The notes under the pieces were generated by a model. That model was given only the letters and a program-made list of their open reading frames with translations, was not told where the DNA came from and searched no databases. This document shows positions 1 to 17,655 of a stretch of 64,000 nt of DNA, one piece after another. Source of the DNA: Synechococcus sp. A18-25c. Lineage in GTDB: Bacteria > Cyanobacteriota > Cyanobacteriia > PCC-6307 > Cyanobiaceae. The number at the start of each line of letters is the position of its first letter. Within the stretch, counting starts at the first letter, position 1. The DNA lies in contig NZ_CP047957.1 of NCBI RefSeq assembly GCF_014280035.1, forward strand, positions 992,001 to 1,056,000, given 5' to 3'. Position numbers and translations under genes: made by a program.

Positions 1-338
1 TACACGAAATAGGCACCCATGGCCATCGTGAGAAGCCATAGGGCACGGAATCCCCAGAGGTTGTCCTTGTGCAGGTAGCGTTCAGCGAAATAGGCGACGA
101 AGCTGGAACTGACCAGGATGACGGTGTTGATGAAAGGGAGCTTTGTCTCTAGACCCTCAACACCCTCCGGAAGCCACTCGGGGCTGGTGAGTTTGAGCAG
201 CGAAAAGCCCACAAAGAAAGCCAGAAAGATGATGCTTTCTGAGCAGAGAAAAATAATGAACCCGGTGAGGTTGTGGCCGTCGTGCTTGATGTGCCCCGGT
301 TGATGATTGAGAGAAAGATCTGGATTGGCGCTGGTCAT
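1..338 (-). CDS. ctaE: Cytochrome c oxidase subunit III, 3' end cut by window edge
   Basis: Integral membrane subunit of a heme-copper terminal oxidase. The visible 112 residues start with MTSANPDLSL and contain the first two membrane segments, including the family-typical stretch FIIFLCSESIIFLAFFVGFS and the later INTVILVSSSFVAYFAERY. The ATG lies 4 bases after the subunit I stop, so the gene is the last visible member of the DUF2231-DUF2231-ctaC-ctaD-ctaE operon. The C-terminal part lies beyond base 1. Because the linked subunits look like the alternative (ARTO-type) oxidase, this is probably the second ctaE copy of the genome rather than the one for the classical aa3 oxidase (inference). 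Confidence 0.9.
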   Translation of the reverse strand, partial: MTSANPDLSLNHQPGHIKHDGHNLTGFIIFLCSESIIFLAFFVGFSLLKLTSPEWLPEGVEGLETKLPFINTVILVSSSFVAYFAERYLHKDNLWGFRALWLLTMAMGAYFV

Positions 339-342
339 CGAT

Positions 343-2031
343 TTAGGCCTCCATGGATCGGCGGATGTAGAACTCTTCGTCCTCAACGAGGGGGCGCCCC
401 AGTCCGTAGCCATAGGGCTCACTCATGACCGTGGGCACGTCATCTTCAAAATTTTCGGCAGGGGGTGGAGAAGGCAGTAGCCATTCCAGTCCGATCGCAT
501 TCCATGGGTTGGCGGACGCTTTGGCGCCCCGTGACCAGGAGCTGACAAGGTTGAGGATGAATGGAATGGAAGCCACACCGAGCATGAAAGCCCCGATGCT
601 GGCAATCACATTCCAGATGGCAAATTCCGGGTCATAGGAGGCCACACGGCGGGGCATGCCGTAAAGGCCGGCCCAATGAAGAGGGAGCCAATTGAGTGTT
701 GCCCCGATGAATGTGAGAGCGAAATGCACCTTGCCGAGACCTTCGTAATACATGCGCCCGGTGAACTTCGGGAACCAGTGGTAGATGCCGGCGAAGATCC
801 CGAAACCGATCGTGTTGAAGATGATGTAGTGAAAATGAGCCACCACGAAATAGGTGTTGCCGACGTGAATATCAATCGGAACGGTGCCAAGCATGACGCC
901 GGTAATGCCGCCGAAGATGAAATTCACCAGTCCTCCCAAGACAAACAACATTGGAGTGGTGAGGCGGATCTTGCCTCCCCAAAGAGTGCCTAGCCAGGCG
1001 AACACCTTCACGCCTGTGGGTACGGCGATCAGCATGGTGGTGACCATGAACAAATTGCGCATCCACTGGGGTGTTCCTGTGTAAAACATGTGGTGAACCC
1101 ACACGATCAGACCGAGGAACGTGATGATGAACGAGGCCAGAGCTACGAACTTGTAGCCGAAAAGTGGTTTGCGTGAATACACCGTGATGAGTTCGGAAAA
1201 GATGCCGAACACCGGCAGCACCATGACGTACACCGCTGGGTGCGAGTAAAACCAGAAGAAATGTTGATAGAGAACCGGATCGCCTCCGCCTTCAGGTCGA
1301 AAGAAACTGGTGCCGAAGCTGAGGTCAAAGAGGAGCATGATGGCGCCGCCTGTTAAGGCAGGCAGGCCAATGAGCTGGAGGGTCTGTGCCGCCCAGGCAG
1401 TCCAGATGTACACAGGCATCTTGAAGAAACCCATGCCGGGAGCACGCATCCGCAGGATCGTGGTGACAAAGTTGATCGCGCCCATGATCGAGGAAATGCC
1501 GGAAAGCGCTACAGCGAGGATCCACAGAAATTCCCCGTTGATCAGATGCCCAAGCGGGTTCTGAATGCTGACCGGTGGATACGACCACCAACCGGATGAC
1601 GCAGGACCGCCCGGCACGAAAAAGCTGCTCAGCAACACCAGGGCAAACACAGGCACCAACCAGAAGGCGGCGGCATTCACCTTGGGGAAGGCCATGTCGG
1701 GTGCCCCGATCATGGTCGGAATCAACAGGTTGTTGAATCCATTGAGGACCGGAAAAAGAAATAGGAACAGCATCACTGTCCCGTGCATCGTGTAAAGACC
1801 GTTGTAAACACTCGGGTCAACTAGATCGGATGGAGGTGTGATCAGCTCTCCGCGCATCACCATGGCCAGCAGACCTCCCACGAGCAGGAAGAACAGCGAC
1901 AAGCCGATGTATTGGATACCGATCACCTTGGCGTCGGTGTTGAAACTGAAAAAGCGTTTCCAGTTGTCGGGTGCCCCTGGAACAGGATGGGGAGCCTTGA
2001 GCACCCTCGGGTCGTAATTCGTGCTGGTCAT
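343..2031 (-). CDS. ctaD: Cytochrome c/quinol oxidase subunit I, A2-type (alternative oxidase)
   Basis: Catalytic subunit of a heme-copper oxidase that reduces O2 to water; 562 residues and about twelve membrane helices. The ligands can be read: heme His near 83 (TMHGTV), the CuB/Tyr motif at 262-268 (YSHPAVY), the CuB pair His313-His314 (WVHHMF) and the late VAHFHY pair. The classical proton-channel glutamate of the GHPEVY motif is replaced by Ala266, and the preceding residues are Tyr-Ser. This is the published signature (YSHPxV) of A2-type oxidases. An in-frame upstream extension to 2112 exists but overlaps ctaC; MTSTNYDPRV at 2031, 5 bases after the ctaC stop, is the natural start. Confidence 0.95.
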   Translation of the reverse strand: MTSTNYDPRVLKAPHPVPGAPDNWKRFFSFNTDAKVIGIQYIGLSLFFLLVGGLLAMVMRGELITPPSDLVDPSVYNGLYTMHGTVMLFLFLFPVLNGFNNLLIPTMIGAPDMAFPKVNAAAFWLVPVFALVLLSSFFVPGGPASSGWWSYPPVSIQNPLGHLINGEFLWILAVALSGISSIMGAINFVTTILRMRAPGMGFFKMPVYIWTAWAAQTLQLIGLPALTGGAIMLLFDLSFGTSFFRPEGGGDPVLYQHFFWFYSHPAVYVMVLPVFGIFSELITVYSRKPLFGYKFVALASFIITFLGLIVWVHHMFYTGTPQWMRNLFMVTTMLIAVPTGVKVFAWLGTLWGGKIRLTTPMLFVLGGLVNFIFGGITGVMLGTVPIDIHVGNTYFVVAHFHYIIFNTIGFGIFAGIYHWFPKFTGRMYYEGLGKVHFALTFIGATLNWLPLHWAGLYGMPRRVASYDPEFAIWNVIASIGAFMLGVASIPFILNLVSSWSRGAKASANPWNAIGLEWLLPSPPPAENFEDDVPTVMSEPYGYGLGRPLVEDEEFYIRRSMEA

Positions 2032-2036
2032 CGGGG

Positions 2037-2981
2037 TCAGGCGTCGTGGGGCTCGTCGGGATTGCCGGGGTCGTTGACCATCGGTGGTGTTGCTGGAGGC
2101 ACCGTGGCCCATCCACGGTTGCCGTCTTTAAGTCGCTTGGCGTAGAGCGATGTCCCAGGGCTCAGTCCCTGCACAAGCGGACGTTTGGCCGTGGCCTTCA
2201 GCCAGGTGTTGTAAGCCTGCTCGGACTCCACGACCACGTCGGTTTGGTTGTGAGAGAAGTAGGCGCCACTGAACATCGAGTCGCGCAGGCGATATCGACC
2301 TTCTCGAGTCGGTGTGATGCTGTATGAGATCACACTTCCAGGAATGATGTCCTGTTTCAAACGGAATGCTGGGATGTAGAAGCCATGCAAGACATCCTCC
2401 GAGCTGAGCTGGAAATTGGCCCGCTGATTGATCGGTAAATGCAGTTCTGAGCTACGCACACCATCGGGATAAATGAATTCCCACGACCACTGGCGGGCAA
2501 TTACATCGATCGGCCCGATGTCACGACGAGCATCCACAGTTGCCACGGCATCAGGGGCTTGGTTCACCGCAACGTCATATTTCTGCTTGGGGCCCAGGGA
2601 CGCCAGTTTTTCGTTGACTTGGATCGAATAGAAGGCCAAAGCCATCACGATCACGAAGGGAATCACTGTCCAAGTGATTTCCAATCGGGTGTTGCCTTCG
2701 ATGGGAAGACCGTCACTTTCGTCATACTTCTCTGCCCGGTTGAAGATCACAGACCAAAGGATGAAACCCACGGATCCGATGAAAATGAAGGCACCGATCC
2801 CTACTTCAAGACTGAACAGGTCATCGACATAGGGCGCAGCCGTTGATGCAGGAACAGGAAGCCATGCGTAAGACCATTGGGCGACTTGAATGCTCAAGAG
2901 AGCATCCGCAATTGTTGCCATCGCAACGATGACCAGCAATCGGAGAGGGAATCCCTTTTTGGGTGTTTGTGTAGATGTCAT
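2037..2981 (-). CDS. ctaC: Oxidase subunit II lacking CuA ligands (ARTO / quinol-oxidase type)
   Basis: Subunit II of the oxidase, 314 residues, with two N-terminal membrane helices (about 11-32 and 55-80), a third hydrophobic stretch at 104-120 and a periplasmic/lumenal cupredoxin domain. In cytochrome c oxidases this domain binds the dinuclear CuA centre with a CxExxxCxxxHxxM motif. Here the aligned stretch at 234-244 reads DSMFSGAYFSH, so both Cys, the Glu, the His and the Met are gone. Only the upstream His199 (DVLHGF) remains. Loss of CuA implies that cytochrome c is not the donor, and a quinol is likely (known for bo3-type and proposed for cyanobacterial ARTO). Overlaps the upstream DUF2231 gene by ATGA. 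Confidence 0.93.
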   Translation of the reverse strand: MTSTQTPKKGFPLRLLVIVAMATIADALLSIQVAQWSYAWLPVPASTAAPYVDDLFSLEVGIGAFIFIGSVGFILWSVIFNRAEKYDESDGLPIEGNTRLEITWTVIPFVIVMALAFYSIQVNEKLASLGPKQKYDVAVNQAPDAVATVDARRDIGPIDVIARQWSWEFIYPDGVRSSELHLPINQRANFQLSSEDVLHGFYIPAFRLKQDIIPGSVISYSITPTREGRYRLRDSMFSGAYFSHNQTDVVVESEQAYNTWLKATAKRPLVQGLSPGTSLYAKRLKDGNRGWATVPPATPPMVNDPGNPDEPHDA

Positions 2982-3613
2982 GGCAGGGCCTCCTTGAGAT
3001 CTGCGCCTGCCGCCAAGAGCTGATCCGCGGTGATGTGAACACCAAATTCACTGGCCAGCCAAGCCCCGAGGCTTCCGTGCACTCCCATGATCAGCAGAAT
3101 CAGGGTTCCACATCCCAGATACAGCCAGGTCACCTGCCGGCCAAAATCCTTGCGCCAGACGAAACGCTGATAACCGCGCCAGATGGTCATCGCCACGATG
3201 GCCAGCAGCAGGATGACGCCGCCGATGCCGTGCCAAAGCATTGTGCTGATGGCATTCTGGCCGATCAAACTGCGGATTCCCGGCAGCGGGACGGCCAGCA
3301 GCATCTCGTAGAAGCCTGCGGCCACAGTGAAAAAGGTGATAACGCTGCAGGCGAGCACGTTGTACCAACCCACATCATGAAATCCACTACGGGTCACGGG
3401 TAGGGCTAGGTAGCGGAACACCCGCTTTTCAAGCGGATAGAACGCACCTGCAAAATCAAATGCGATGCCGATGGCGAACAATCCGATGGTGAAATGCACC
3501 AAATTCGGATGGATCGGGATGGCGTAAGGGAGATCGTTTGCCCCCAGTTGGTCTGCGATGTCGTTGATGGGAGAGGGGATGGCCATCAGTTGGATCAGGT
3601 TGAGGGATGTCAT
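2978..3613 (-). CDS. DUF2231 four-helix membrane protein, second of the pair
   Basis: A 211-residue membrane protein of the DUF2231 family, function unknown. Hydrophobic segments lie at about 36-58, 84-106, 126-144 and 163-180. The first begins with the motif HPNLVHF (His35, His40), also present in its upstream neighbour. Further histidines sit at helix ends (His79, His128, His179). The pattern suggests a membrane heme or metal site (inference only). It overlaps ctaC at its 3' end and the first DUF2231 gene at its 5' end, each by four bases (ATGA), which implies translational coupling and a role tied to the oxidase, such as assembly, heme delivery or an extra electron-transfer subunit. Confidence 0.85.
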   Translation of the reverse strand: MTSLNLIQLMAIPSPINDIADQLGANDLPYAIPIHPNLVHFTIGLFAIGIAFDFAGAFYPLEKRVFRYLALPVTRSGFHDVGWYNVLACSVITFFTVAAGFYEMLLAVPLPGIRSLIGQNAISTMLWHGIGGVILLLAIVAMTIWRGYQRFVWRKDFGRQVTWLYLGCGTLILLIMGVHGSLGAWLASEFGVHITADQLLAAGADLKEALP

Positions 3614-4125
3614 GACACCGCTCCACTACGAATGGCTTCCACCACCGGGACGGTGTGAAGTCCGTAGACCCAAACCAGCTTGTCTCCGAGATACACCTGG
3701 CAGAACACGAGGGTTGCCAGCACGCCGTCAATGACGAGAAAGCCGGTGGGCAAATGCGTGGGATCTTTTTGTCGGACCACATAACGCCATCCGGTCAGGA
3801 GCCCTAACACCCCCGCCAGTGACCATCCGATGGTGCTGTGGTAGTTGAGGATGTCACGGGAGGCACCGTACGGATTGGCCAGACCTGCCTCAATTTGGCC
3901 AAAAATAATCGCTACGAAGATGGCCACCGTGGCCACCACCAAATTCCAGAAGGTCACTTCGAAGAGATTCTTTCGGCGCGTGATCACACCAACCAGATCG
4001 AACACGACGCTGATCAGTGCCATCGCGATCACAAAGTGCACCACGATTGGGTGAATGACATCCAACCAGGGAAGATTTTTATCGTTGAGCGGTGGAAGCA
4101 GCTCGAGCATCGGCAAGCCGAGCAA
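3610..4125 (-). CDS. DUF2231 four-helix membrane protein, first of the pair
   Basis: A 171-residue DUF2231 membrane protein and first gene of the oxidase operon. Helices lie at about 24-47, 58-78, 99-113 and 128-147. It shares HPIVVHF (His25, His30) with the second DUF2231 protein and has His96 and His157 near membrane borders. M1 or M6 could be the start; M1 is listed. Known family members often sit next to respiratory genes, but no biochemical function is established to my knowledge. Upstream lies a 123-base gap to the exchanger gene, containing a perfect 7-bp hairpin at 4193-4209 with no T-run. Confidence 0.82.
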   Translation of the reverse strand: MLGLPMLELLPPLNDKNLPWLDVIHPIVVHFVIAMALISVVFDLVGVITRRKNLFEVTFWNLVVATVAIFVAIIFGQIEAGLANPYGASRDILNYHSTIGWSLAGVLGLLTGWRYVVRQKDPTHLPTGFLVIDGVLATLVFCQVYLGDKLVWVYGLHTVPVVEAIRSGAVS

Positions 4126-8277: not shown

Positions 8278-8739
8278 TTGACCGACCCTTTCAGTCTGGC
8301 TCCAGAGCCTGAAAGCTACTGGCATCTCTATACCGATGCCAAGGGCATCAGTCGTCAGCAAATGTGCACGATCAGCGCCTTTGAGCTTGGTCAGCTGGGC
8401 CCCGGTGATTCTCCCCAGTTTTCTCGTGATCTCATGAAGGAAGGCAACGCCTTCGTGACCTATCTACCCGTTGGTTGGACTGCTGACTGGCATGAGAACC
8501 ATGTTCCGAAATGGATCTACGTCCTGAAAGGTGCCTGGTCTGTGGAGAGTATGGATGGCACGAAAGTGGTCATGAAAGCTGGTGAGTATTCCTATGGAGG
8601 TGACCAGGGGTGTCGGGCAACATCGGATGGCCGGCAAGGACATCTTTCTGCGCAGGTCGGTGATGAACCTTGCGTTCAGCTGATCATTCAACGGAATGAT
8701 CAGGCCTGGCGAAATCTGCCTCCTGGATCCTTCAAGTAA
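8278..8739 (+). CDS. Cupin-domain protein
   Basis: A 153-residue single-domain cupin-type protein. The beta-barrel core runs from about residue 55 to 140, with GWTADWHENHVPKWIYVLKG resembling the first cupin motif (the histidines WHENH are possible metal ligands) and a glycine-rich turn SYGGDQGC where the second motif is expected. Substrate unknown; cupins of this sort are sugar- or acid-binding isomerases, dioxygenases or regulators. The start is TTG with no good ribosome binding site, so the N-terminus is uncertain. It stops 13 bases before the SMP-30 gene, so they are probably cotranscribed. Confidence 0.75.
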   Translation: MTDPFSLAPEPESYWHLYTDAKGISRQQMCTISAFELGQLGPGDSPQFSRDLMKEGNAFVTYLPVGWTADWHENHVPKWIYVLKGAWSVESMDGTKVVMKAGEYSYGGDQGCRATSDGRQGHLSAQVGDEPCVQLIIQRNDQAWRNLPPGSFK

Positions 8740-8752
8740 GCGGCAAGTCGTC

Positions 8753-9727
8753 ATGGTTTTTCGCAGCGAGTTTGTTGAAACCAAGATCGAAGTTGTTGAT
8801 CCGCGTTTCAAGTCTCTGGTGCTATTCAATGCGCAGCTGGAACGTCTCTTTGGTGGTTGTCGATGGTTGGAGGGTCCGGTTTGGTTCGGCGATCAGCAGC
8901 GTCTTTTGGTTTCTGACATTCCCAATGATCGAATTTTGTCGTGGGATGAGAGCCATGGTCTGAGCGTGTTCCGCCACAACGCTGGATTTCCAAATGGACA
9001 AACGCGTGATCTCCAGGGACGGCTGTTGACCTGCAGTCATGGCCATCGGGCCTTGCTGCGCACCGAGCACAACGGTCGTGTTGTTCATTTGGTGGATTCC
9101 CACCTGGGTCAGCCTTTGAACACGCCCAATGATGTGGTGGTGAAAAGTGACGGCACGATCTGGTTCAGCGATCCGTTGTATGGACTCGTGAATGATTACG
9201 AGGGAGGACGGCGGCATTCGGTGCAACCGGCTGTGGTCTATCGCTTTGACCCTGCGGATGGATCCCTTAAGGCCATGACGGACCCCGATGAGGTGGTCGG
9301 CCCAAATGGTCTTGCCTTCTCTCCCGATGAATCACTCCTCTACATCGTGGACACAGCAGCACCTGAGGGTCTGAACGGTTCCCCGGTGGAGTACGACGCC
9401 CCTAAGCCAGATCGACTCATCCACGTGTTTGATGTGGAGGATGGCGGTCAGCAGATTTCGGGTCGACGCGATTTTTATCGGGTGAACAACGGCAATGCCG
9501 ATGGCATCCGTGTGGATAGCGACGGCAACATCTGGAGCAGTGCCGGGAATGGCGTTCACTGCATTGCATCGGATGGGACCTTGCTGGGACGCATCGCCAC
9601 GCCCCGTCTGGTTGGGAACCTCTGTTTTGGCGGCATCCACAGCAACCGCCTGTTTCTCTGCTGTTGGGATGCGGTGTATTCCATCTATGTGCATGCGCGT
9701 GGGATCCAACACCCTGCACTTCCTTAA
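8753..9727 (+). CDS. SMP-30/gluconolactonase family lactonase
   Basis: A 324-residue six-bladed beta-propeller hydrolase expected to open sugar lactones to sugar acids. The metal ligands of the family are visible: Glu40 in WLEGPVW, Asn126 in NTPNDVVV, Asn185 in GPNGLAFS and Asp250 in NADGIRVDSDG. The ATG at 8753 is preferred over an in-frame start at 8696 inside the cupin gene. No signal peptide is seen, so it acts in the cytoplasm. Together with the SDR and GMC oxidoreductases downstream it would supply the lactone-hydrolysis step of a direct sugar-oxidation route. Confidence 0.87.
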   Translation: MVFRSEFVETKIEVVDPRFKSLVLFNAQLERLFGGCRWLEGPVWFGDQQRLLVSDIPNDRILSWDESHGLSVFRHNAGFPNGQTRDLQGRLLTCSHGHRALLRTEHNGRVVHLVDSHLGQPLNTPNDVVVKSDGTIWFSDPLYGLVNDYEGGRRHSVQPAVVYRFDPADGSLKAMTDPDEVVGPNGLAFSPDESLLYIVDTAAPEGLNGSPVEYDAPKPDRLIHVFDVEDGGQQISGRRDFYRVNNGNADGIRVDSDGNIWSSAGNGVHCIASDGTLLGRIATPRLVGNLCFGGIHSNRLFLCCWDAVYSIYVHARGIQHPALP

Positions 9728-9761
9728 ACGTCGCTACAACAAAGACAGTCGATCTGCATCG

Positions 9762-10157
9762 ATGCCTTTGGACCGTCATCCAATTCGCACCCAAAATGCC
9801 AATCAGCCAGTGGCTAGCTACAGCCAGGGCTACCAAATCGGACAGTTTGTGTTCGTCTCAGGCCAAATGCCTGTGGATCCAGCCACCAATCAAACGGTAG
9901 AAGGTGGTAGTGCGGAACACACCCGCCAATGCCTGAAGAATGTGTTTGGTGTGCTTGAAGAAGCAGGATGCACTTATCGCGATGTGGGACAGGCAGTGGT
10001 TTATATGACCAATATTGATGAAATTGAGGAGATGGATGCTGTCTGGCAAGAGTTTTTCCCCGATCCAGATAATTACTGTTCCCGTGCGGTAATCGGCATC
10101 AGCAAATTGGTGGTTGGAGCCCGCATCGAAATCTCCTGCATTGCAATTAAGGACTGA
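9762..10157 (+). CDS. RidA-family enamine/imine deaminase
   Basis: A 131-residue RidA (YjgF/YER057c) protein. The family hydrolyses reactive 2-aminoacrylate and other imines. Visible signatures are SYSQGYQIGQFVFVSGQMPV, a KNVFGVLEEAGC stretch, and the C-terminal SRAVIGISKLVVGARIEISC, which holds the conserved Arg. The longer frame from 9495 overlaps the SMP-30 gene; ATG at 9762 gives the normal family length. It ends 4 bases before the Nif11 gene. Confidence 0.9.
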   Translation: MPLDRHPIRTQNANQPVASYSQGYQIGQFVFVSGQMPVDPATNQTVEGGSAEHTRQCLKNVFGVLEEAGCTYRDVGQAVVYMTNIDEIEEMDAVWQEFFPDPDNYCSRAVIGISKLVVGARIEISCIAIKD

Positions 10158-10161
10158 CGCT

Positions 10162-10428
10162 ATGACCAGCACAGGGAATCCACAGCTGGAAGCTTTCCTC
10201 CACAAAGTGAAAGGTGATCAGGCGTTGCTTGACCAGTTCCATACAGCAGCTTGTCTCGACGACATTGCAGCCATGGGGAAGTCCATGGGCTTTCAGTTCA
10301 CAGGGGTCGACATCCTGGTGCATCAGGCATCAGCCACGCTGAAACTGCCAGGTGAAGCTCTCGAGGCTTTGGCGGCTGGGGTGGAGCTAGAGGGCCATCT
10401 CTGGAAGATGGCCATTCAATGGACCTGA
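10162..10428 (+). CDS. Nif11-domain small protein
   Basis: An 88-residue protein with a single Nif11 domain: NPQLEAFLHKVKGDQALLDQ, then DDIAAMGKSMGFQFTGVDI. Nif11 domains occur as leader regions of peptide natural products (prochlorosins, nitrile-hydratase-like leaders) and as stand-alone proteins of unknown role. Here there is no Gly-Gly cleavage site and no Cys/Ser/Thr-rich core, and the tail ends in HLWKMAIQWT. It is therefore probably not a lanthipeptide precursor. It lies between RidA and the GlcG-like gene with gaps of only 4 bases on each side. Confidence 0.8.
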   Translation: MTSTGNPQLEAFLHKVKGDQALLDQFHTAACLDDIAAMGKSMGFQFTGVDILVHQASATLKLPGEALEALAAGVELEGHLWKMAIQWT

Positions 10429-10432
10429 GCCG

Positions 10433-10873
10433 ATGCACATGATTCACCGCCTCGAACTTGCCGATGCCGACCACATCGTCGAGTCCGCTAAGGCCATGGC
10501 GCAGCAATTGTCGGCACGGGTGTCGATCGCGGTCGTGGATGCCTCGGGGGTGCTGCTCTCCTTCCGTCGGCTCGACGGTGCGTCCATCGCCAGCGTTGAG
10601 ACATCAGCCGCTAAAGCCCGCACGGCAGCGCTGACCGGTGGAGACAGTGCTGCTGCGGAACAAGCGATCGCCTCAGGCCGCATGGCCCTGCTGTCGTTAC
10701 AGGCTGTGCTGCATCAGCCCTGCGCCTTGATGGCTGGCGGACTGGTGTTGCGATATCAAGATGTGGTGGTTGGGGCGATCGGGGTGTCAGGAATGACGCC
10801 TGATCAAGATGCCGCGGTCGCCCGAGCGGGGATTGAGGCTTTCGCGCTCAAAGACCAGGACTGCTCATCATGA
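10433..10873 (+). CDS. GlcG/HbpS-like heme-degrading-domain protein
   Basis: A 146-residue protein of the GlcG/HbpS/PduO-C family (DUF336). Typical features are ARVSIAVVDASGVLLSFRRL, KARTAALTGG, and the C-terminal VVVGAIGVSGMTPDQDAAVA. Members bind heme or cobalamin, or sit in glycolate and diol operons; the precise function is unknown. ATG codons at 10433 and 10439 are both possible starts. Its last 26 bases overlap the 3' end of the convergent SDR gene. Confidence 0.82.
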   Translation: MHMIHRLELADADHIVESAKAMAQQLSARVSIAVVDASGVLLSFRRLDGASIASVETSAAKARTAALTGGDSAAAEQAIASGRMALLSLQAVLHQPCALMAGGLVLRYQDVVVGAIGVSGMTPDQDAAVARAGIEAFALKDQDCSS

Positions 10874-11624
10874 TGCCGCCATCGGCGAAGACGCTGGTGG
10901 CCGTCATGTAACTGGCGCCGTCACTGGCGAGGAACGCCACCACCGAAGCGATCTCCTCTGGTTGCGCCATGCGGCCCATGGGAATGGCGGCGTTGAGCTT
11001 GGCGAGCAGTTCGGGGTTGTTCATTGTGGAATCGTTGATCGGCGTTGCGACTGCACCAGGACCGACGTTCACGATGGAAACACCCTTGCCTGCCAGTTCC
11101 ACACCAGCCGTGCGGGTCATCATGCGCACACCGCCTTTGGCTACGCAGTAAGGGGTGTTGTCGGGCATCGGCCAGTCTTCATGCACCGACGAAATGTTGA
11201 TGATCCGTCCCCCGCTGCCTTGGGCGATCATCTGTTTGGCGGCGTACTGCGTGGCAAAGAACACACCCCGCAGATTGACATTCATCACCTTGTCGAAGTC
11301 TTCGGGTGTCGTATCCAGAATTGATGTGCGCGTTTCGATTCCGGCGTTGTTCACCATCACGTCGACCTTGCCGAAGGTCTTCACCGCGACATCCACGAGG
11401 CGTTGCAGGTCGTCCAACTTGGCGACGTCCGCTTGAACACCGATGGCCTGACCACCCAGTTCTCCAATCTCATCAATCAGCTCATCTGTCCGCTCGGGAT
11501 GTGAGCGGTAGTCGATGACCACCTTGGCGCCCAGAGCACCGACGGCTTCGACAATGGCCTTGCCAATACCGGAATTGCCTCCGGTCACGATGATCACCTT
11601 GTCGCGCAGACAAAGGGAGGTCAT
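10848..11624 (-). CDS. Short-chain dehydrogenase, glucose 1-dehydrogenase-like
   Basis: Classical SDR of about 258 residues with the NAD(P)-binding TGGNSGIG motif at 14-21, NNAG, and the catalytic Ser of NISSVHED followed by the YCVAK Tyr/Lys pair. The best remembered match is to bacterial glucose 1-dehydrogenases and 3-oxoacyl-ACP reductase-like sugar dehydrogenases; substrate specificity cannot be read from sequence. The start at 11624 gives the usual short N-terminus before the first beta-strand; 11648 and 11675 are in-frame alternatives. With the nearby SMP-30 lactonase it could oxidise a sugar to its lactone (inference). Confidence 0.87.
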   Translation of the reverse strand: MTSLCLRDKVIIVTGGNSGIGKAIVEAVGALGAKVVIDYRSHPERTDELIDEIGELGGQAIGVQADVAKLDDLQRLVDVAVKTFGKVDVMVNNAGIETRTSILDTTPEDFDKVMNVNLRGVFFATQYAAKQMIAQGSGGRIINISSVHEDWPMPDNTPYCVAKGGVRMMTRTAGVELAGKGVSIVNVGPGAVATPINDSTMNNPELLAKLNAAIPMGRMAQPEEIASVVAFLASDGASYMTATSVFADGGIMMSSPGL

Positions 11625-11751
11625 CGCTTTTGGGACCTGGGTGGTCATGGCGGTCAGAAACAAACAAACATTCATTAGCCGGTTTCACTGATCTCGGCAG
11701 TGTTTCGTGCGTAAACGGCGCTAAGACAACGTCAGCGGGGATGACGCATTC

Positions 11752-12591
11752 GTGGTCGATGTTCAGTGCCAATCTCCTTTTGTTCAGGGAGTGGCTTTTT
11801 CTCTCCCTATGGCCGGGTGTCTCGATCCTCTCCTTGCGCTTCTCGGCGTTGAGGATCACGGACAGGCTCTGCTGCAAGGGGACGACCTTCAACGCCGCTT
11901 TGGCTTGACCCAGGGACAGGCCACCATTCATCACTACCGACTGGGTGATGAGTGCCTTGACTATGTCTCCTTCGAAGGTGTTGATCCCGTCCAACAGCGA
12001 CACCCAGGGGTTGCGAACAGTCTCTGGTTCCAGCATGTCGCGATTGTGGTGAGTGATTTGCAGCGTGCGGCAGAACAGCTGATGCCTGTCGTGACTCCGA
12101 TCTCGGAAGCGCCGCAGTGGTTGCCCAACGGAGTGGGGGCATGGAAGTTCCGCAATGCCGCTGGTCATGCCATGGAGCTGCTCTGGTTTCCTCCTGGACT
12201 CGGGCACCCGCGTTGGCATGAGGCGGACGCCCTTTTGTTTCAGGGACTCGACCATACGGCTATCGCGATCAGCGATAGCGACCAAAGTTTGATGTTTTAC
12301 GGCGTGGAGCTTGGCCTCCAACTGCGCTACGCCACCCTTAATCAAGGTGTTGAACAGGAACGCCTTGATGGCGTCACCAACCCCAAAGTGTCCATTCATG
12401 GATTGAGTGGTTCTACGCCGTGCGGAATTGAGTTCTTGAGATATCTCAGTCCCACTCCGTTGCAACCCACAGCGGCTGCGCTGCGGCCGCAGGATGCTTT
12501 GTATGCGCAGATTCTGATCAAGGACCCTGAGGCTGGACCCGGTCGCCAGTTGAATGACCCAGATGGTCACCGACTGTGGATTTCTTCTTAA
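11752..12591 (+). CDS. Glyoxalase/VOC superfamily protein with two VOC repeats
   Basis: A 279-residue vicinal-oxygen-chelate protein. One beta-alpha-beta-beta-beta unit spans about 90-150 (LWFQHVAIVVSDL to HAMELLWFP) and a second about 160-279 (GLDHTAIAISDSD to GIEFLRYL and NDPDGHRLWI). Histidine and glutamate residues in these strands are the likely metal ligands. It starts with GTG. Family members act as dioxygenases, lactoylglutathione lyases or epoxide-opening enzymes; which one is not visible. Divergent from the SDR gene across about 125 bases that could hold both promoters. Confidence 0.78.
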   Translation: MVDVQCQSPFVQGVAFSLPMAGCLDPLLALLGVEDHGQALLQGDDLQRRFGLTQGQATIHHYRLGDECLDYVSFEGVDPVQQRHPGVANSLWFQHVAIVVSDLQRAAEQLMPVVTPISEAPQWLPNGVGAWKFRNAAGHAMELLWFPPGLGHPRWHEADALLFQGLDHTAIAISDSDQSLMFYGVELGLQLRYATLNQGVEQERLDGVTNPKVSIHGLSGSTPCGIEFLRYLSPTPLQPTAAALRPQDALYAQILIKDPEAGPGRQLNDPDGHRLWISS

Positions 12592-12651
12592 GCGAATCCT
12601 TCAGTTTTTCCGACTCGAACTCACTAACGTTCGAAAAATGGTCGACGCCAA

Positions 12652-13143
12652 GTGGATCTTGTTTCTCTGATTGTCCCTGCGGCGCCGGAAGGCCTTGCCG
12701 GTGCTGGTCTGTTGGTGCTGCGGCTGTTCACCGGTCTGGTGTTCATCCGCCACGGTTGGCCCAAGCTCAGCAACCTGAACACCTGGGCCACGGCCATGAA
12801 GACTCCGGCATGGCTTTGTTTTCTCTCAGCCTTCTCCATGTGGGCCGGTGGGATTGCTCTGATTGCGGGGCTCCTGACGCCCTTAGCAGCAGTCGCTATT
12901 GCTGTTTCGATGCTGTACGCCGTGGTTTTGGAAATTACCAGTGGCTTCCCGTTTATTGCACCTGACCCATTTCAAATCCCAGAAGGTGATTACGCCGGAC
13001 CGATGGGTGTTGGTGAACCTCCGAGCTGGGAGAAAGCCGCAATGTATGTCGTGATGTGCTTTGTGCTGATCACCGCGGGCGGAGGACCCTTCAGCATCGA
13101 TTTGATGCTGGTGGTTCCACGCCTTCAGGTCTTATTGGGGTGA
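12652..13143 (+). CDS. DoxX-family membrane protein
   Basis: A 163-residue membrane protein with four predicted helices and the DoxX signature: LRLFTGLVFIRHGWPKLSN, an AWLCFLSAFSMWAGGIALIA helix, and a C-terminal VVMCFVLITAGGGPFSID. DoxX proteins are tied to quinone-linked oxidation and thiol redox in other bacteria. It starts with GTG, 60 bases after the glyoxalase-like gene, and its stop directly abuts the stop of the convergent GMC oxidoreductase. It could pass electrons from a GMC enzyme to quinone, but this is speculative. Confidence 0.85.
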   Translation: MDLVSLIVPAAPEGLAGAGLLVLRLFTGLVFIRHGWPKLSNLNTWATAMKTPAWLCFLSAFSMWAGGIALIAGLLTPLAAVAIAVSMLYAVVLEITSGFPFIAPDPFQIPEGDYAGPMGVGEPPSWEKAAMYVVMCFVLITAGGGPFSIDLMLVVPRLQVLLG

Positions 13144-14742
13144 TCAGCTCAGTCGCTCTTTGAGGTGTTCCGCCACTCGGATGGCGTTAGCAATGGCGGT
13201 GAGCGACGGATTCACCGCTGAGCTGCTGGGGAAGAAACTGGTGTCGACCACATAGAGATTCTCCACATCGTGGGTGCGGCAGTTGAGGTCCAACACCGAG
13301 GTGCTCGGATCCGTGCCGAAGCGACATGTGCCTGACTGATGGCCGACTGCTGCAATGTCCATCGAGGAGGCGAAATACACCTGACGCTCGGCCAGGTGAT
13401 TTTTGAGGTATAGCTTGTCTAGCAGCCCCTCAAGTCGGTTGACCAGCTCGTTGGATGACCTGGTGTTGGTCGGTGTGTAGTCGAGTTTGATCTGTCCTTG
13501 GGAATTGATGGTGACTCGATTGTTTGCCAGTGGAAGATCCTCAGTTTGCAACCAGAAATCCAGCGAGTGTTCAGCGATCTTGTCCATGCTCCAGGTGGGG
13601 GCCAGAGCGGTGAGTCGCGGTTTGTAGCCTTTCATCATCGCTCCATTGGTTTTACCCGTCATCTGCACATTTCCCATCGGAAAATCGAAGTCGTTGTCTC
13701 CGAAATACCAGTCATGCAGAGCAACTGTTTTTTGGAACACCGTCGTGTTGGGCTCATGGGCCAGTGCCACCAAGGCCTTGCAGTTGTGGTACATGTAATT
13801 TCTGCCCACTTGATCGGAGCTGTTGGCAAGTCCTCGGGGATGGGCGTCGTTCGCTGACATCAGCAGCAGACGTGCTGAATTGGCAGCTCCAGCAGAGACC
13901 ACCACAATGTCTCCTTTGAAGCGACGTTCCTGCCCCTGGTAGTTCACCACCACGTCCGTGACTTCTCGCCCACTCTCATTGGTGTTCAGTCGAAGCACCT
14001 CAGCATCTGTGAGCAAGAAGACATTGTCGTGATCCAGTGCCGGGCGAACACCCATCACCTCGGCATCACCCTTGGCCTGCACTAGACAGGGAAATCCATC
14101 GCAGCGATTGCAGCGCACACATGCACTGAAGGCGGGATTGGCTTCGTTGAGGGCGACTCCCGTTGGTGCGTGAAAGGGATGAAGGCCTGCTGATCGCAGG
14201 TCATCAACCAATTTCTGCATGCGCGGTTCATGCTTGATCGGCGCATAGGGGTAGTCAGAGGATGCCGGTGGTTCGGTGGGGTCTTCGCCGCGAAGGCCAT
14301 GCACGTGGTACCACTCTTCGGCTTTGCGGTAGTACGGCTCGAACACGTCGTATTTCAGAGGCCATTCCGGTGATTCACCGTCGACATGCATCACCGATTC
14401 GAAATCCCTCTCGCGCAGCCTGAAGTGAGCAGCTCCATACATCTTTGAGGCACCGCCCACGAAGTAATGACTGCCTGGTTGAAACGTCTTTCCGTGTTTG
14501 TCTTGCCACGGGTCCTCTGAGACGTAGCGATCGTTCTGAAACACCTCAACTGGGTCCCAGTTCTGAGGTTCCCTGGGCAACCAACCACCACGTTCCAGGA
14601 TCAAGATTGAGTGACCGGAATCCGCTAGAGCTCTGGCGAGAGAGCCTCCACCCGCGCCACTGCCAATGATCACCACGTTGTAGTGATCACTTTGCGGTTC
14701 GATCGATGTTTGGCGACGAGCGGCATGGGTGGCGTGATCCAT
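13144..14742 (-). CDS. GMC-family FAD oxidoreductase (sugar/alcohol dehydrogenase-like)
   Basis: A 532-residue flavoprotein with the N-terminal FAD fold NVVIIGSGAGGGSLARAL, GASKMYGAAHFR near the flavin attachment region, and the C-terminal catalytic pair: His in GHQSGTCRFG and Asn in AVNPSLTAIAN. A cysteine cluster ACVRCNRCDGFPC near 215-230 resembles that of FAD glucose dehydrogenases and gluconate dehydrogenases and might hold an iron-sulfur or disulfide site. The likely reaction is oxidation of a sugar or alcohol with electrons passed to a quinone or cytochrome. ATG at 14742 is preferred over the in-frame start at 14784. Confidence 0.88.
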   Translation of the reverse strand: MDHATHAARRQTSIEPQSDHYNVVIIGSGAGGGSLARALADSGHSILILERGGWLPREPQNWDPVEVFQNDRYVSEDPWQDKHGKTFQPGSHYFVGGASKMYGAAHFRLRERDFESVMHVDGESPEWPLKYDVFEPYYRKAEEWYHVHGLRGEDPTEPPASSDYPYAPIKHEPRMQKLVDDLRSAGLHPFHAPTGVALNEANPAFSACVRCNRCDGFPCLVQAKGDAEVMGVRPALDHDNVFLLTDAEVLRLNTNESGREVTDVVVNYQGQERRFKGDIVVVSAGAANSARLLLMSANDAHPRGLANSSDQVGRNYMYHNCKALVALAHEPNTTVFQKTVALHDWYFGDNDFDFPMGNVQMTGKTNGAMMKGYKPRLTALAPTWSMDKIAEHSLDFWLQTEDLPLANNRVTINSQGQIKLDYTPTNTRSSNELVNRLEGLLDKLYLKNHLAERQVYFASSMDIAAVGHQSGTCRFGTDPSTSVLDLNCRTHDVENLYVVDTSFFPSSSAVNPSLTAIANAIRVAEHLKERLS

Positions 14743-14793
14743 AACGACGTGCCCAGGGATTCTGCTGAACGTTAGAGAGATCACTTCATGACG

Positions 14794-17487
14794 TCAGCGC
14801 CAACGTTGGAGTTGCGTGATCATTTTGACCACCACTCCGGTCCATCCCGTCTGGTGACTTGCTCCAACCCCAGCACCGCTGCAGCCATGAAAATATTCAT
14901 TAAATAGAAAGAGATCACGCCACTCTGGATCCTTTTGAAACAACTCCACCTCACCGTTAAAAGCTCTGCGTCCGTCGCCATCCCGACGGAAGATGCCGAC
15001 TAAACGCTCTTCCAGTTCAAGCGAGATCTCCCACAGATTGAGGTGCCGCCCCGATCCAGTTGGGAATTCCATTTTGAAATCGTCACCAAAGTGATGGCCG
15101 AATTTCTGCAGGGCTTCGATGAGCAGGTAGTTGATTGGCATCCAAACGGGGCCGCGCCAGTTGGAATTGCCTCCAAACATGGCGACAGGGCTATCAGCAG
15201 GGCTGTAGCTGATCGTGGCGTAGTCGTCGCCCTGTTGGTAGCTGTAAGGGGTTTTTTCGTAGACCTTGGACAGGCTGCGGATGCCGTACGGAGAGAGGAA
15301 TTCATCTTCGTCGAACACCCTGGTGAGAATGCGTCGGAGCCGTTGCGGCGGAACGATCGAAAACAGAACCCGGCCATGGTGCCAGGATCCCAGATGGGCA
15401 ATCGAATCAAATTCGGCTCCGCGTTCGCGACCCAGATCTCTCAGGTATTTGCTGACGTCCAGGGAGGGAATCGAGTCCACCGTCTGCTGGTCAAACGTCG
15501 CGATCGCAAGCAACGGAATGAGGCCGCTGAGTGAACGGGTGCGCAGGTAGTCGGTGCTGCCGTCGGGTCGCTTGAGCACGTCGTAATAGAAGCCGTCCTG
15601 CTCATCCCAGTTCACATATCCCCTGCCACTGGGGCTGTTTAAGGCGTAGGTAAGCCGGCTGAAGTCCGCCACGAAGCGGTCACACAAACTCTTGTATTCC
15701 GCCCGGTCTTCTGAGAGCAGAACACAAGCCTCAAGCATGTTGAGGCTGAGCATTCCCATCCAGGCAGTGCCATCGGATTGTTCAATTCGGCTGCCGTCTT
15801 TGAGCGGGTAGCGCCGATCGAAAATGGCGATGTTGTCGAGTCCGAGGAAGCCTCCCTCGAACAAGCTGTCGCCGTTGCGATCGGTCCGGTTGGCCCACCA
15901 TCCGTACTCCAGCAAGAGCTCCCGCAGGCTGGCGCGCAGAAAGGGGTAGTCGTTGACGCCGTCACGGCGTTTCGCTATTTGGAAGATGCGCAGTGCCGCC
16001 CAAGCGCCGATCGGTGGGTTGGCGTCTGAGAGTGCCCACTCATAGGCAGGGGATTGACCGTTATTGGCGGTATATGAGGCTTGGCGAAGCATGCGTGACT
16101 GCCGTTTCGCCTCACCCGGATCGATTTCGGCGAAGGCCACCGCATGGAACATCAGGTCCCACTGGCAGAAGTAGGGGTACTCCCAACAGTCGGGCATCGA
16201 GATGATGTCTCGGGCCCGCAGATTTCGCCAATAGGCGTTTTCGGTGTGCCAGCGTTCTTCCGGCGGTCTCGGAGCATTGCTGTCTCCGCGCAGCCATCGG
16301 GCCACGTACCAGTCGTAGTACTTGCGGCACCAGAACAAACCCGCAGCGGCCGAGGCATGGATCGCGCGATCTTCCTCGTTAAGTCCAGGGGCCACCCACT
16401 GGAGATAGGCCTGCCACTCCTTCCGGCGTTGCTCAATCAAGCCATTGAAGGCGGTGGTTTCGGTCGGTTCAGGGGCCTTGTTTCCCTGGTGGTCGTGCCT
16501 GCTTAAGCGCAGATCCACGCTCCAGATTTCCCCAGGATCGAGTGTGCGTTGGAGGTGGAGCGCTGCTTTGCTTCCTGTCTGTGCCGGATTGATTGCGTGG
16601 TGCTCGTCCTCAATCAGGTAGCGGTGAAAGGCATCTTTCACGTAGGGCTGTTGAAGCGCTTGTCCATACAGACGGTCCGTGTTGGTTTCGTTTTCCGTGA
16701 ACAACCAATGGCCCTGTTCACTGCAGCTCAGGTTGTAAGAGGCCAACCCTTCGGTGGCATCGCTGACGAGGCGATTGCCCTGAAGCCGAAGGTGGGGTCG
16801 GCCATGGTCACGATCTCCCCAGCTCCAGGTGTTGCGGAACCACAGCGACGGTAGGAGGTGCAGGGGTGCTTGATCCGGACCCTGGTTGGTGATGGTGAGC
16901 CGGATCAGTACATCCTCGGGTGAAGCTTTGGCGTACTCAACTTCGACATCGAAAAAGTGATTGCTGGAGAAGATGCCTGTGTCGACCAACTCATATTCCT
17001 TCTCCTCGCGACTGCGGCGGCGGTTTTCATCGCGCAGCTGTTGATAAGGAAAACTCTGCTGTGGGTAGCGATAGAGCGCTTTGGAGTAGCTGCCGGTTGG
17101 TGTTCCGGCTAGGTGATACATCGTGTCCTTGATGTCTTCCCCGTGGTTGCCTTCGGGATTGCCCAGTCCGAACAGGCGTTCCTTCAGAATCGGGTCCTGG
17201 CCATTCCAGAGCACTGGCGCGAAACAGAGCAGGCAGTGTTCATCGGTGAGTCCGAGAAGACCGTCCTCTCCCCAGCGGTAACTGCGCAGGTGGCTGTGGT
17301 CGAAGGGGAAGGCATTCCAGGCATTGCCATCGGCGGAATAGTCCTCACGGACCGTGCCCCATTGCCGGTCACTCAAATAGGTTCCCCATCGATCCCATGG
17401 CTGATGCCCTTCATCCCGTTCACGGCAACGCAGACCTTCAGCCGGTGTCTCTCCGATCGTTGCGTTGGAAATCGCAGAAGTCGACAT
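14794..17487 (-). CDS. Glycoside hydrolase family 63-type enzyme
   Basis: A large cytosolic glycosidase of 897 residues related to GH63 (glucosidase I, mannosylglycerate/glucosylglycerate hydrolases). The (alpha/alpha)6 barrel is recognisable from CWEYPYFCQWDLMFHAVAFA, whose Asp is the likely catalytic acid, and from SNWRGPVWMPINYLLIEAL near the C-terminus. The N-terminal beta-sandwich starts at about residue 25 (EGHQPWDRWGTYLSDRQWG). The open frame extends to 18342 but passes through a tRNA gene on the same strand, so MSTSAISNATIG at 17487 is the start. Marine Synechococcus makes glucosylglycerate-type solutes, so release of glucose or a hexose from such a solute is plausible (inference). 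Confidence 0.87.
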   Translation of the reverse strand: MSTSAISNATIGETPAEGLRCRERDEGHQPWDRWGTYLSDRQWGTVREDYSADGNAWNAFPFDHSHLRSYRWGEDGLLGLTDEHCLLCFAPVLWNGQDPILKERLFGLGNPEGNHGEDIKDTMYHLAGTPTGSYSKALYRYPQQSFPYQQLRDENRRRSREEKEYELVDTGIFSSNHFFDVEVEYAKASPEDVLIRLTITNQGPDQAPLHLLPSLWFRNTWSWGDRDHGRPHLRLQGNRLVSDATEGLASYNLSCSEQGHWLFTENETNTDRLYGQALQQPYVKDAFHRYLIEDEHHAINPAQTGSKAALHLQRTLDPGEIWSVDLRLSRHDHQGNKAPEPTETTAFNGLIEQRRKEWQAYLQWVAPGLNEEDRAIHASAAAGLFWCRKYYDWYVARWLRGDSNAPRPPEERWHTENAYWRNLRARDIISMPDCWEYPYFCQWDLMFHAVAFAEIDPGEAKRQSRMLRQASYTANNGQSPAYEWALSDANPPIGAWAALRIFQIAKRRDGVNDYPFLRASLRELLLEYGWWANRTDRNGDSLFEGGFLGLDNIAIFDRRYPLKDGSRIEQSDGTAWMGMLSLNMLEACVLLSEDRAEYKSLCDRFVADFSRLTYALNSPSGRGYVNWDEQDGFYYDVLKRPDGSTDYLRTRSLSGLIPLLAIATFDQQTVDSIPSLDVSKYLRDLGRERGAEFDSIAHLGSWHHGRVLFSIVPPQRLRRILTRVFDEDEFLSPYGIRSLSKVYEKTPYSYQQGDDYATISYSPADSPVAMFGGNSNWRGPVWMPINYLLIEALQKFGHHFGDDFKMEFPTGSGRHLNLWEISLELEERLVGIFRRDGDGRRAFNGEVELFQKDPEWRDLFLFNEYFHGCSGAGVGASHQTGWTGVVVKMITQLQRWR

Positions 17488-17566: not shown

Positions 17567-17655
17567 TGGTGGGGGCGGGGGGACTTGAACCCCCACAGGA
17601 CTTCCATCCCAAGCGATTTTAAGTCGCGTGCGTCTACCGATTCCGCCACGCCCCC
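17567..17655 (-). tRNA. tRNA-Leu (anticodon UAA), uninterrupted, CCA encoded
   Basis: Read on the minus strand, the acceptor stem GGGGGCG pairs with CGCCCCC, followed by A and an encoded CCA (17567-17569). The D arm carries GGCGGAATCGGTAGACGC. The anticodon loop CTTAAAA gives UAA. A variable arm of leucine type follows, then the T loop GTTCAAGTC. Many cyanobacteria interrupt this gene with a group I intron between the second and third anticodon-loop bases; no intron is present here. It lies 79 bases upstream of the GH63 start on the same strand. Confidence 0.95.

Follow-up and report, generated by a model that had tools for sequence, protein, structure and literature searches.

The question raised by the locus studied here is whether a run of genes resembling enzymes of sugar oxidation forms a functional unit in a cyanobacterium, and what such a unit would do. 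The window, a stretch of 64,000 nucleotides, corresponds to positions 992001-1056000 of the complete 2.51-Mb genome of Synechococcus sp. A18-25c, and the genes in question occupy window positions 8278-17487. An earlier note on this DNA had read them as a route from a glycoside via free sugar and lactone to sugar acid, with electrons passed to the quinone pool. Every gene that it named was found as a long open frame with a family match in Pfam or NCBIfam; overlooked were a small Nif11 gene (10162-10428) and the neighbouring oxidase operon ctaC2D2E2 with an altered GMC protein, here called GMC-B. The block holds ten genes and is bordered by a tRNA gene:

8278-8739, plus strand: cupin-domain protein with a TTG start; borderline Cupin_2 match in Pfam (27 bits, cut-off 27.2); orthologues adjoin the SMP-30 gene in relatives
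8753-9727, plus strand: SMP-30/gluconolactonase; a start at 8753 is more likely than one at 8696, because the latter falls within the cupin gene
9762-10157, plus strand: RidA-family protein, accessory and not constant in relatives; Ribonuc_L-PSP 100.4 bits, TIGR00004 106.1 bits (cut-off 106.25)
10162-10428, plus strand: small Nif11-domain protein; Pfam Nif11 41.8 bits, TIGR03798 62 bits (cut-off 32.3)
10433-10873, plus strand: HbpS/GlcG-like protein; Pfam HbpS-like 104.1 bits
10848-11624, minus strand: SDR dehydrogenase, glucose 1-dehydrogenase-like, by NF005559 and the alignment to 1rwb
11809-12591, plus strand: VOC-superfamily protein; weak Pfam Glyoxalase match (23.2 bits) in one half only; homologues recur near GMC genes in relatives
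12652-13143, plus strand: DoxX membrane protein; Pfam DoxX 49 bits, HvfX-like profile 33.1 bits (cut-off 80)
13144-14742, minus strand: GMC-A, FAD-dependent GMC dehydrogenase; contains a CxxCNxCDGFPC stretch and a His468/Asn511 pair
14794-17487, minus strand: GH63-type glycosidase of 897 aa, by Pfam and predicted fold
17567-17655, minus strand: tRNA-Leu (UAA), found by ARAGORN and Rfam; edge of the inserted module

That this ten-gene module is real and conserved is well supported. We sampled 131 Cyanobiaceae genomes and counted as a GMC-A orthologue any match of at least 67% identity, fragments included; orthologues of GMC-A and of GH63, assigned by hand, occurred in the same 33 genomes. Three genomes (G018, G084 and G124) contained only distant GH63 copies, with 43-48% identity across the main part; in G124 an N-terminal piece reaches 60%, and counting this copy would change the figures to 33 and 34. 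The two genes were adjacent, on the same strand and at most 365 bases apart in all 29 loci inspected. DoxX orthologues (at least 60% identity) were present in 29 of the 33 module-bearing genomes and in none of the others sampled, and three of the four genomes lacking a DoxX match are assemblies of 240 to 390 contigs. The earlier note had named scattering of the genes in relatives as the finding that would speak against a cluster; the GMC, GH63 and DoxX genes are not scattered, and SMP-30 is looser. Its remark that such a route would be unusual in a photoautotroph was overstated, given the module's presence in 33 of 131 Cyanobiaceae and versions of it in other cyanobacteria.

The balance of the evidence tips slightly towards reading the ten genes as a cassette that spreads horizontally, oxidises sugar in the cytoplasm and supplies a short respiratory chain. 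With regard to mobility, the block was found in two of the five genomes sampled from the genus (the window's own and G101), and the other three (G034, G075 and G123) are without GMC-A. The two of these that were inspected, G075 and G123, display the empty site, with pyrC, tRNA-Leu(UAA) and ndhL as neighbours and approximately 130-150 bases from the tRNA to pyrC; the empty site was also seen in G004. The block at 8278-17487 occupies this pyrC/tRNA-Leu gap (the labels pyrC, bicA, ndhL and trpA were assigned by us from the sequences), and G101 and strain WH7803 (L108) carry it at the same place. In L109 it lies on the other side of tRNA-Leu(UAA) (L109 13268-13356), and in three loci from other genera (L049, L050 and L116) oxidase genes and block together adjoin tRNA-Leu(UAA). 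The tRNA-Leu(UAA) site looks like a hot spot, a variable region. Among named contigs, the nearest GMC-A belonged to an uncultured Synechococcus (93%); the nearest one from a cultured strain was that of WH7803 (88%).

The SDR protein exceeded the cut-off of the glucose 1-dehydrogenase subfamily NF005559 in NCBIfam (225.8 against 215) and matched Pfam adh_short_C2 with 210.2 bits. It aligned over nearly its whole length with the Bacillus glucose 1-dehydrogenase (1rwb/1gco; 219 bits for 1rwb), the SSVHE...P...Y...K stretch being conserved and the Ser-Tyr-Lys active-site residues present. It differs from that enzyme in belonging to another subfamily, and it scored 260.9 against a cut-off of 420 for PRK08936. 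The SMP-30 protein scored 149.5 bits with the SGL profile (PF08450, cut-off 26.3), and its best solved relatives, 3e5z and 3dr2, were deposited as gluconolactonases. SMP-30 homologues of 48-49% identity, each with one in-frame TAG, were also observed in four genomes without GMC-A (G072, G076, G102 and G121), and are possibly decayed copies.

GMC-A matched GMC_oxred_C with 76.2 bits and GMC_oxred_N with 31 bits in Pfam. Both in sequence and in fold (AlphaFold2 model, mean predicted local distance difference test score, pLDDT, 80.3; fold match E 4.5e-37) it lies nearest to the alpha subunit of FAD-glucose dehydrogenase from Burkholderia cepacia (6a2u/8grj) and the large subunit of fructose dehydrogenase from Gluconobacter (7w2j/8jej), which are sugar-oxidising flavoproteins that feed the respiratory chain. 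His468 and Asn511, which we take to be the catalytic pair, were conserved in all 28 aligned Cyanobiaceae sequences, and the CxxCNxCDGFPC stretch, found at the place of a Cys-rich stretch in these enzymes, retained four or five cysteines in the same 28. In contrast to the Burkholderia and Gluconobacter enzymes, GMC-A shows no export signal by eye and travels with a glycosidase, an SDR and a lactonase; the Cys spacing also differs from that of 6a2u. The stretch was modelled with a pLDDT below 50, so that a Cys-ligated [3Fe-4S] cluster like that of the FAD-glucose and fructose dehydrogenase complexes may or may not be present in GMC-A. Two other identities for GMC-A were rejected. The 3-keto-glycoside pathway joins a GMC protein to a Gfo/Idh/MocA partner, and no such partner was present among the ten genes; one adjoins the distant homologue L142. 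The best NCBIfam match was MftG, a mycofactocin dehydrogenase described in the part of PMC11778925 consulted as a GMC enzyme passing electrons to the respiratory chain in mycobacteria. The coupling of MftG to respiration counts in favour of the cassette reading, but as an identity for GMC-A the score of 77.3 bits lies far under the cut-off of 387.45, and profile scans of the ten genes revealed no mft genes.

The glycosidase matched MGH1-like_GH (69.6 bits) and Glyco_hydro_63 (PF03200, 38.2 against 22.4) in Pfam and shows no signal peptide by eye. Its AlphaFold2 model (mean pLDDT 76.6) gave modest fold matches, nearest to eukaryotic glucosidase I (TM-score about 0.5) and then to Escherichia coli YgjK (about 0.37). 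Asp444 and Glu864 (D444 and E864), presumably the catalytic Asp and Glu of GH63 enzymes, were invariant in all 24 aligned sequences. GH63 and GH15 enzymes are inverting and release the beta anomer, the form preferred by glucose dehydrogenases. In three loci (L036 11108-13765, L039 11038-13749 and L068 14093-16372), GMC-A is followed by a further GH63 gene of 47-50% identity.

A pathway can be proposed in which GH63 would hydrolyse an alpha-glucoside in the cytoplasm to give glucose, SDR would convert the glucose with NAD(P) to gluconolactone, and SMP-30 would open the lactone to gluconate. The NADH formed would enter the quinone pool via a type-2 NADH dehydrogenase (NDH-2), and GMC-A would oxidise glucose or a downstream sugar and deliver electrons to the membrane, perhaps via DoxX, and on to plastoquinone. 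A quinol oxidase without CuA (ARTO, ctaC2D2E2), or elsewhere cytochrome bd, would finally reduce O2. The likely use would be fast burning of a stored or osmotic glucoside without ATP-dependent phosphorylation, as a sink for O2 or electrons in the dark or under stress. Within this scheme we infer which substrate is used, in which direction the flux runs, how electrons leave GMC-A and what accepts them, and what the physiology is, together with the roles of the VOC, cupin, HbpS, Nif11 and RidA proteins. An NDH-2-like gene, labelled by eye, was observed in eight of the 20 Cyanobiaceae stretches first fetched, and the A18-25c genome encodes two distant homologues of this protein elsewhere (30-32%). 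The reading in the earlier note is partly supported, and its core, the route from glycoside to sugar acid and quinone pool, fits the comparative evidence. It resembles the oxidative fermentation of acetic acid bacteria in its incomplete oxidation of sugars and in flavin dehydrogenases that feed ubiquinol oxidases; that process is periplasmic, whereas the present proteins show no signal peptide and their unit includes a glycosidase. The novelty lies in how known enzyme families are combined, not in a new kind of enzyme, and no description of this gene set was found among the literature matches listed. Glucose is reported to affect proteins of marine strains (PMC10100731); that paper gave no match for GMC or "glucose dehydrogenase", though its table includes glucose 1 dehydrogenase (gdh). 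Part of another paper (PMC4734447) names GMC oxidoreductase among orthologue groups in a section on distinctions between Synechococcus lineages.

The candidate terminal oxidase is encoded at window positions 1-4125, to the left of the block:

3-341, minus strand: ctaE2, oxidase subunit III, cut by the window edge; conserved family adjoining ctaD2 in relatives
343-2034, minus strand: ctaD2, oxidase subunit I; in L132 the homologue in the equivalent position carries the annotation ctaD
2037-2981, minus strand: ctaC2, oxidase subunit II without CuA cysteines; best solved relative 6kob, quinol oxidase subunit 2
2978-3613, minus strand: DUF2231-type membrane protein a, named from annotated homologues
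3610-4125, minus strand: DUF2231-type membrane protein b, named from annotated homologues
genome 990182-991681 (L033 14182-15681), just left of the window: GMC-B, directly downstream of ctaE2

The usual oxidase set in relatives is DUF2231b, DUF2231a, ctaC2, ctaD2 and ctaE2, and the order oxidase genes, GMC-B, GH63, GMC-A was found in 23 of 29 loci. No Cys was present in the C-terminal half of ctaC2 in any of 35 aligned sequences (the window and L033 entries being one gene counted twice), and an oxidase without CuA fits ARTO, as judged from these Cyanobiaceae sequences, on which the quinol reading of the haem-copper oxidase rests. The operon resembles ARTO in its gene set and in a subunit II nearest to quinol oxidase subunit 2, and differs in that it additionally contains two genes for DUF2231 proteins and one for a GMC-like protein that mostly lacks the catalytic pair. 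DUF2231a occurred in 53 of the 131 Cyanobiaceae, all 53 with a GMC match (sets compared by hand), and GMC-B lay downstream in each of 33 distinct DUF2231a loci. GMC-B as a second sugar dehydrogenase was rejected: the aligned His was kept in two of 35 sequences, the Asn in none and the Cys stretch in none. The same-strand GMC proteins downstream of ctaE2 in other cyanobacteria (L105, L106, L132 and L136) also lack the pair, L132 and L136 keeping the cysteines. In a tree of 68 sequences, all 17 GMC proteins whose genes immediately follow ctaE2 on its own strand formed one clade (100/100). Taking linkage to the oxidase more widely, there are two exceptions: L099 has a GMC gene with an intact pair at a distance of approximately 6 kb from ctaE2, while L095 has one on the opposite strand that adjoins ctaE2, contains a stop in frame and was left out of the alignment. 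The operon with its GMC-B relative stands beside cydAB and feoB in Anabaena variabilis and Nostoc edaphicum, and in L044 (13592-15278, G024) ctaD2 is split into two tblastn pieces, possibly by a frameshift or a sequencing error.

To our knowledge, the electron source of ARTO, and the reason why many picocyanobacteria retain it, are open questions. The flavoprotein of the ARTO operon together with the adjoining sugar-oxidising cassette would offer a concrete, testable electron source. ARTO is reported from 85% of Synechococcus reference genomes and linked to low-iron populations, and also to iron reduction with reference to a Synechocystis mutant, in PMC10119275, a paper in which the word GMC has a count of 0.

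Similar kits were found outside the Cyanobiaceae. Homologues of GMC-A among the records fetched came from Actinobacteria, Proteobacteria and one member of the Bacillota, with identities of 58-62% for named contigs and 45-54% for plasmids. We counted in each locus the part types SDR, glycosidase, SMP-30, DoxX, VOC, cupin and oxidase (tblastn, E 1e-12, 50 bits), using as controls 20 stretches of 20 kb, all from cyanobacterial genomes. At least three types were present in 12 of 20 plasmid loci, four of 20 loci from other cyanobacteria, two of six loci (L118-L123) from five Actinobacteria and one metagenome-assembled genome (MAG) labelled Acidobacteria, and none of the 20 controls, of which one gave a GH63 match and one an SDR match. 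Some of the query proteins came from tested loci, L118 and L119 among them, which scored partly by construction; of the 12 plasmid loci from which no query was taken, five contained at least three types. A chance neighbourhood is rejected both by these controls and by the co-occurrence of GMC-A and GH63. The plasmid loci contained SDR in 13 cases, glycosidase in 12, VOC in 11, SMP-30 with DoxX in nine, cupin in nine and oxidase in seven; for the other cyanobacteria, where three stretches were only 10-14 kb long, the figures were 14 for SDR and nine for glycosidase. In L118-L123 we found cydA in all six (L119 having supplied the query), GH15 in five, an NDH-2-like flavoprotein in four and SDR in three. 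By Pfam, L118 and L119 encode both subunits of cytochrome bd (I and II) and a trehalase-like GH15 close to GMC; L122 encodes cytochrome bd subunit I, GH15 and a Pyr_redox_2 flavoprotein close to GMC, and this flavoprotein is present in L118 too.

The annotated contents of individual plasmids show how the parts vary. A Mesorhizobium B2-1-8 plasmid carries VOC, SMP-30, cupin, DoxX, SDR, GMC and two glycosidase genes, and a Roseomonas plasmid VOC, SMP-30, cupin, DoxX, GMC and an oxidase operon. A Caballeronia plasmid combines an oxidase operon annotated with ubiquinol oxidase subunit II with SDR, GH15, a further SDR, GMC, DoxX, cupin, SMP-30 and VOC. On a Streptomyces plasmid are GH15, a cyclase, a 2-hydroxyacid dehydrogenase, gluconokinase, GMC, cydB, cydA, an NAD(P)/FAD oxidoreductase and SDR, and on an Azospirillum plasmid SDR, aquaporin, GMC, VOC, an FAD oxidoreductase, amylo-1,6-glucosidase and glucosidase. 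Across the loci, GH63 and GH15 replace each other as the glycosidase, and haem-copper and bd enzymes, from two unrelated superfamilies, replace each other as the terminal oxidase. Moreover, the Cyanobiaceae proteins grouped with those of the Actinobacteria and the MAG labelled Acidobacteria at 100/99 in both the GMC-A and the SDR tree, and because the grouping is the same, the two genes probably travelled together; long branches were flagged in both trees, and the stem of this clade is long in the SDR tree. We tentatively suggest, at less than even confidence, a cassette that crosses phyla, in which glycosidase, NAD-linked sugar dehydrogenase, GMC protein, lactonase and a dedicated quinol oxidase travel as a set with exchange of glycosidase and oxidase types, and which in cyanobacteria includes ARTO with its own catalytically retired GMC-B as a docking or electron-entry subunit. 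If the sugar-oxidising cassette does supply ARTO with electrons, some marine and freshwater Synechococcus could burn glucosides directly to O2 while bypassing both the pentose-phosphate and the Entner-Doudoroff route, and bacteria of soil and plants would have the same route on plasmids.

Several results weigh against a sugar-oxidising cassette feeding a respiratory chain. SMP-30 orthologues (at least 53% identity) were present in only 13 of the 33 module-bearing genomes, and copies also exist outside the 33 (55% in G022, 35% in G120). In six of the 29 loci (the window's own, G101, L046, L051, L052 and L070), the oxidase genes do not immediately adjoin GH63 and GMC-A. Fewer than three part types were found in eight of 20 plasmid loci (L132 and L136 with oxidase only, L134 and L139 with two types, L143 and L145 with SDR only, L133 and L142 with none) and in 16 of 20 loci from other cyanobacteria, L101 too holding none; and tblastn found no SMP-30, DoxX, VOC or cupin in L118-L123. 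The name NDH-2 is our own label for proteins that Pfam places only in Pyr_redox_2 and related FAD/NAD-binding families. With regard to GMC-A, Pfam detected among the ten genes no homologue of the gamma chaperone or the haem c (cytochrome) subunit, a further difference from the Burkholderia and Gluconobacter enzymes. A required Fe-S cluster is doubtful, because L139, L140, L141 and L144 lack the four-Cys stretch or have only a degenerate form of it, and other homologues have a different residue in place of the third Cys. No gluconokinase in the A18-25c genome exceeded the curated cut-offs (best FGGY match 89.3 bits); gluconate may therefore undergo further oxidation by GMC-A, leave the cell or be the substrate of another kinase. 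Finally, homology does not fix the substrates of the GMC, SDR and GH63 enzymes.

Three other explanations were considered alongside the sugar-oxidising cassette. The block may instead be centred on the oxidase, with ARTO acting as an O2 sink or Fe(III) reductase, the GMC proteins as flavin electron donors and carbon catabolism as secondary. The GMC match in every DUF2231a-bearing genome, the single clade of ctaE2-associated GMC proteins with a mostly lost catalytic pair, the operons beside cydAB and feoB, and the ties of ARTO to low iron and iron reduction (PMC10119275, in part) all favour this. However, GMC-A with GH63 also occurs where no ARTO is nearby, and the glycosidase and the lactonase would be left without a role; we regard this explanation as unlikely. 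Slightly less likely again, in our judgement, is osmolyte turnover, the idea of the earlier note, in which an osmotic downshift would lead GH63 to cleave glucosyl- or mannosylglycerate (or sucrose or glucosylglycerol), with the oxidised sugar as a disposal product. The MGH1-like (mannosylglycerate hydrolase) domain match of GH63 is consistent with it, and aquaporin-like genes were found near GMC in six of 20 other-cyanobacterial and two of 20 plasmid loci (L126 having supplied the query). Yet GH63 is of the long 897-aa type with a predicted fold nearest to glucosidase I and then YgjK, its exchange for a trehalase-like GH15 elsewhere points to a plainer alpha-glucoside, and a salinity transcriptome paper (PMC12834511) contains none of the terms searched for.

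The least likely of these explanations concerns the substrate: a non-sugar alcohol (polyol, steroid-like or aromatic) would be oxidised by GMC-A and SDR, and the glycosidase would free an aglycone rather than glucose for oxidation. Both the GMC and the SDR family are diverse in substrate, distant GMC homologues occur in other sugar or alcohol operons (L142 and L143), and the VOC and cupin proteins find no explanation in a glucose route. Against this stand the nearest solved relatives of GMC-A, SDR and SMP-30, all named for hexoses or hexose lactones, and the frequent glycosidase partners in the plasmid loci (12 of 20).

The earlier note had the RidA, GlcG-like and VOC genes deal with reactive by-products; this role, like a glycosyl-glycerate substrate, found no support here. 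RidA and HbpS were present in a minority of module copies and VOC was commoner. RidA, also found in the copies L109, L115 and L116, was rejected as a core part, since few copies contain it. A peptide-maturation system consisting of Nif11 and DoxX was rejected as the principal explanation, no maturation enzyme being present among the ten genes. No Nif11 was found in the loci of the component count at E 1e-12, a threshold at which so short a protein may escape. In most module copies having Nif11, the gene adjoins SMP-30 or HbpS, and it shows no obvious core peptide. Four loci of other cyanobacteria (L095 8514-8888, L098 10082-10453, L099 9818-10159 and L102 8056-8430) share a small protein rich in glycine that is encoded beside GMC, and a gene annotated as colicin V family lies near GMC in L127.

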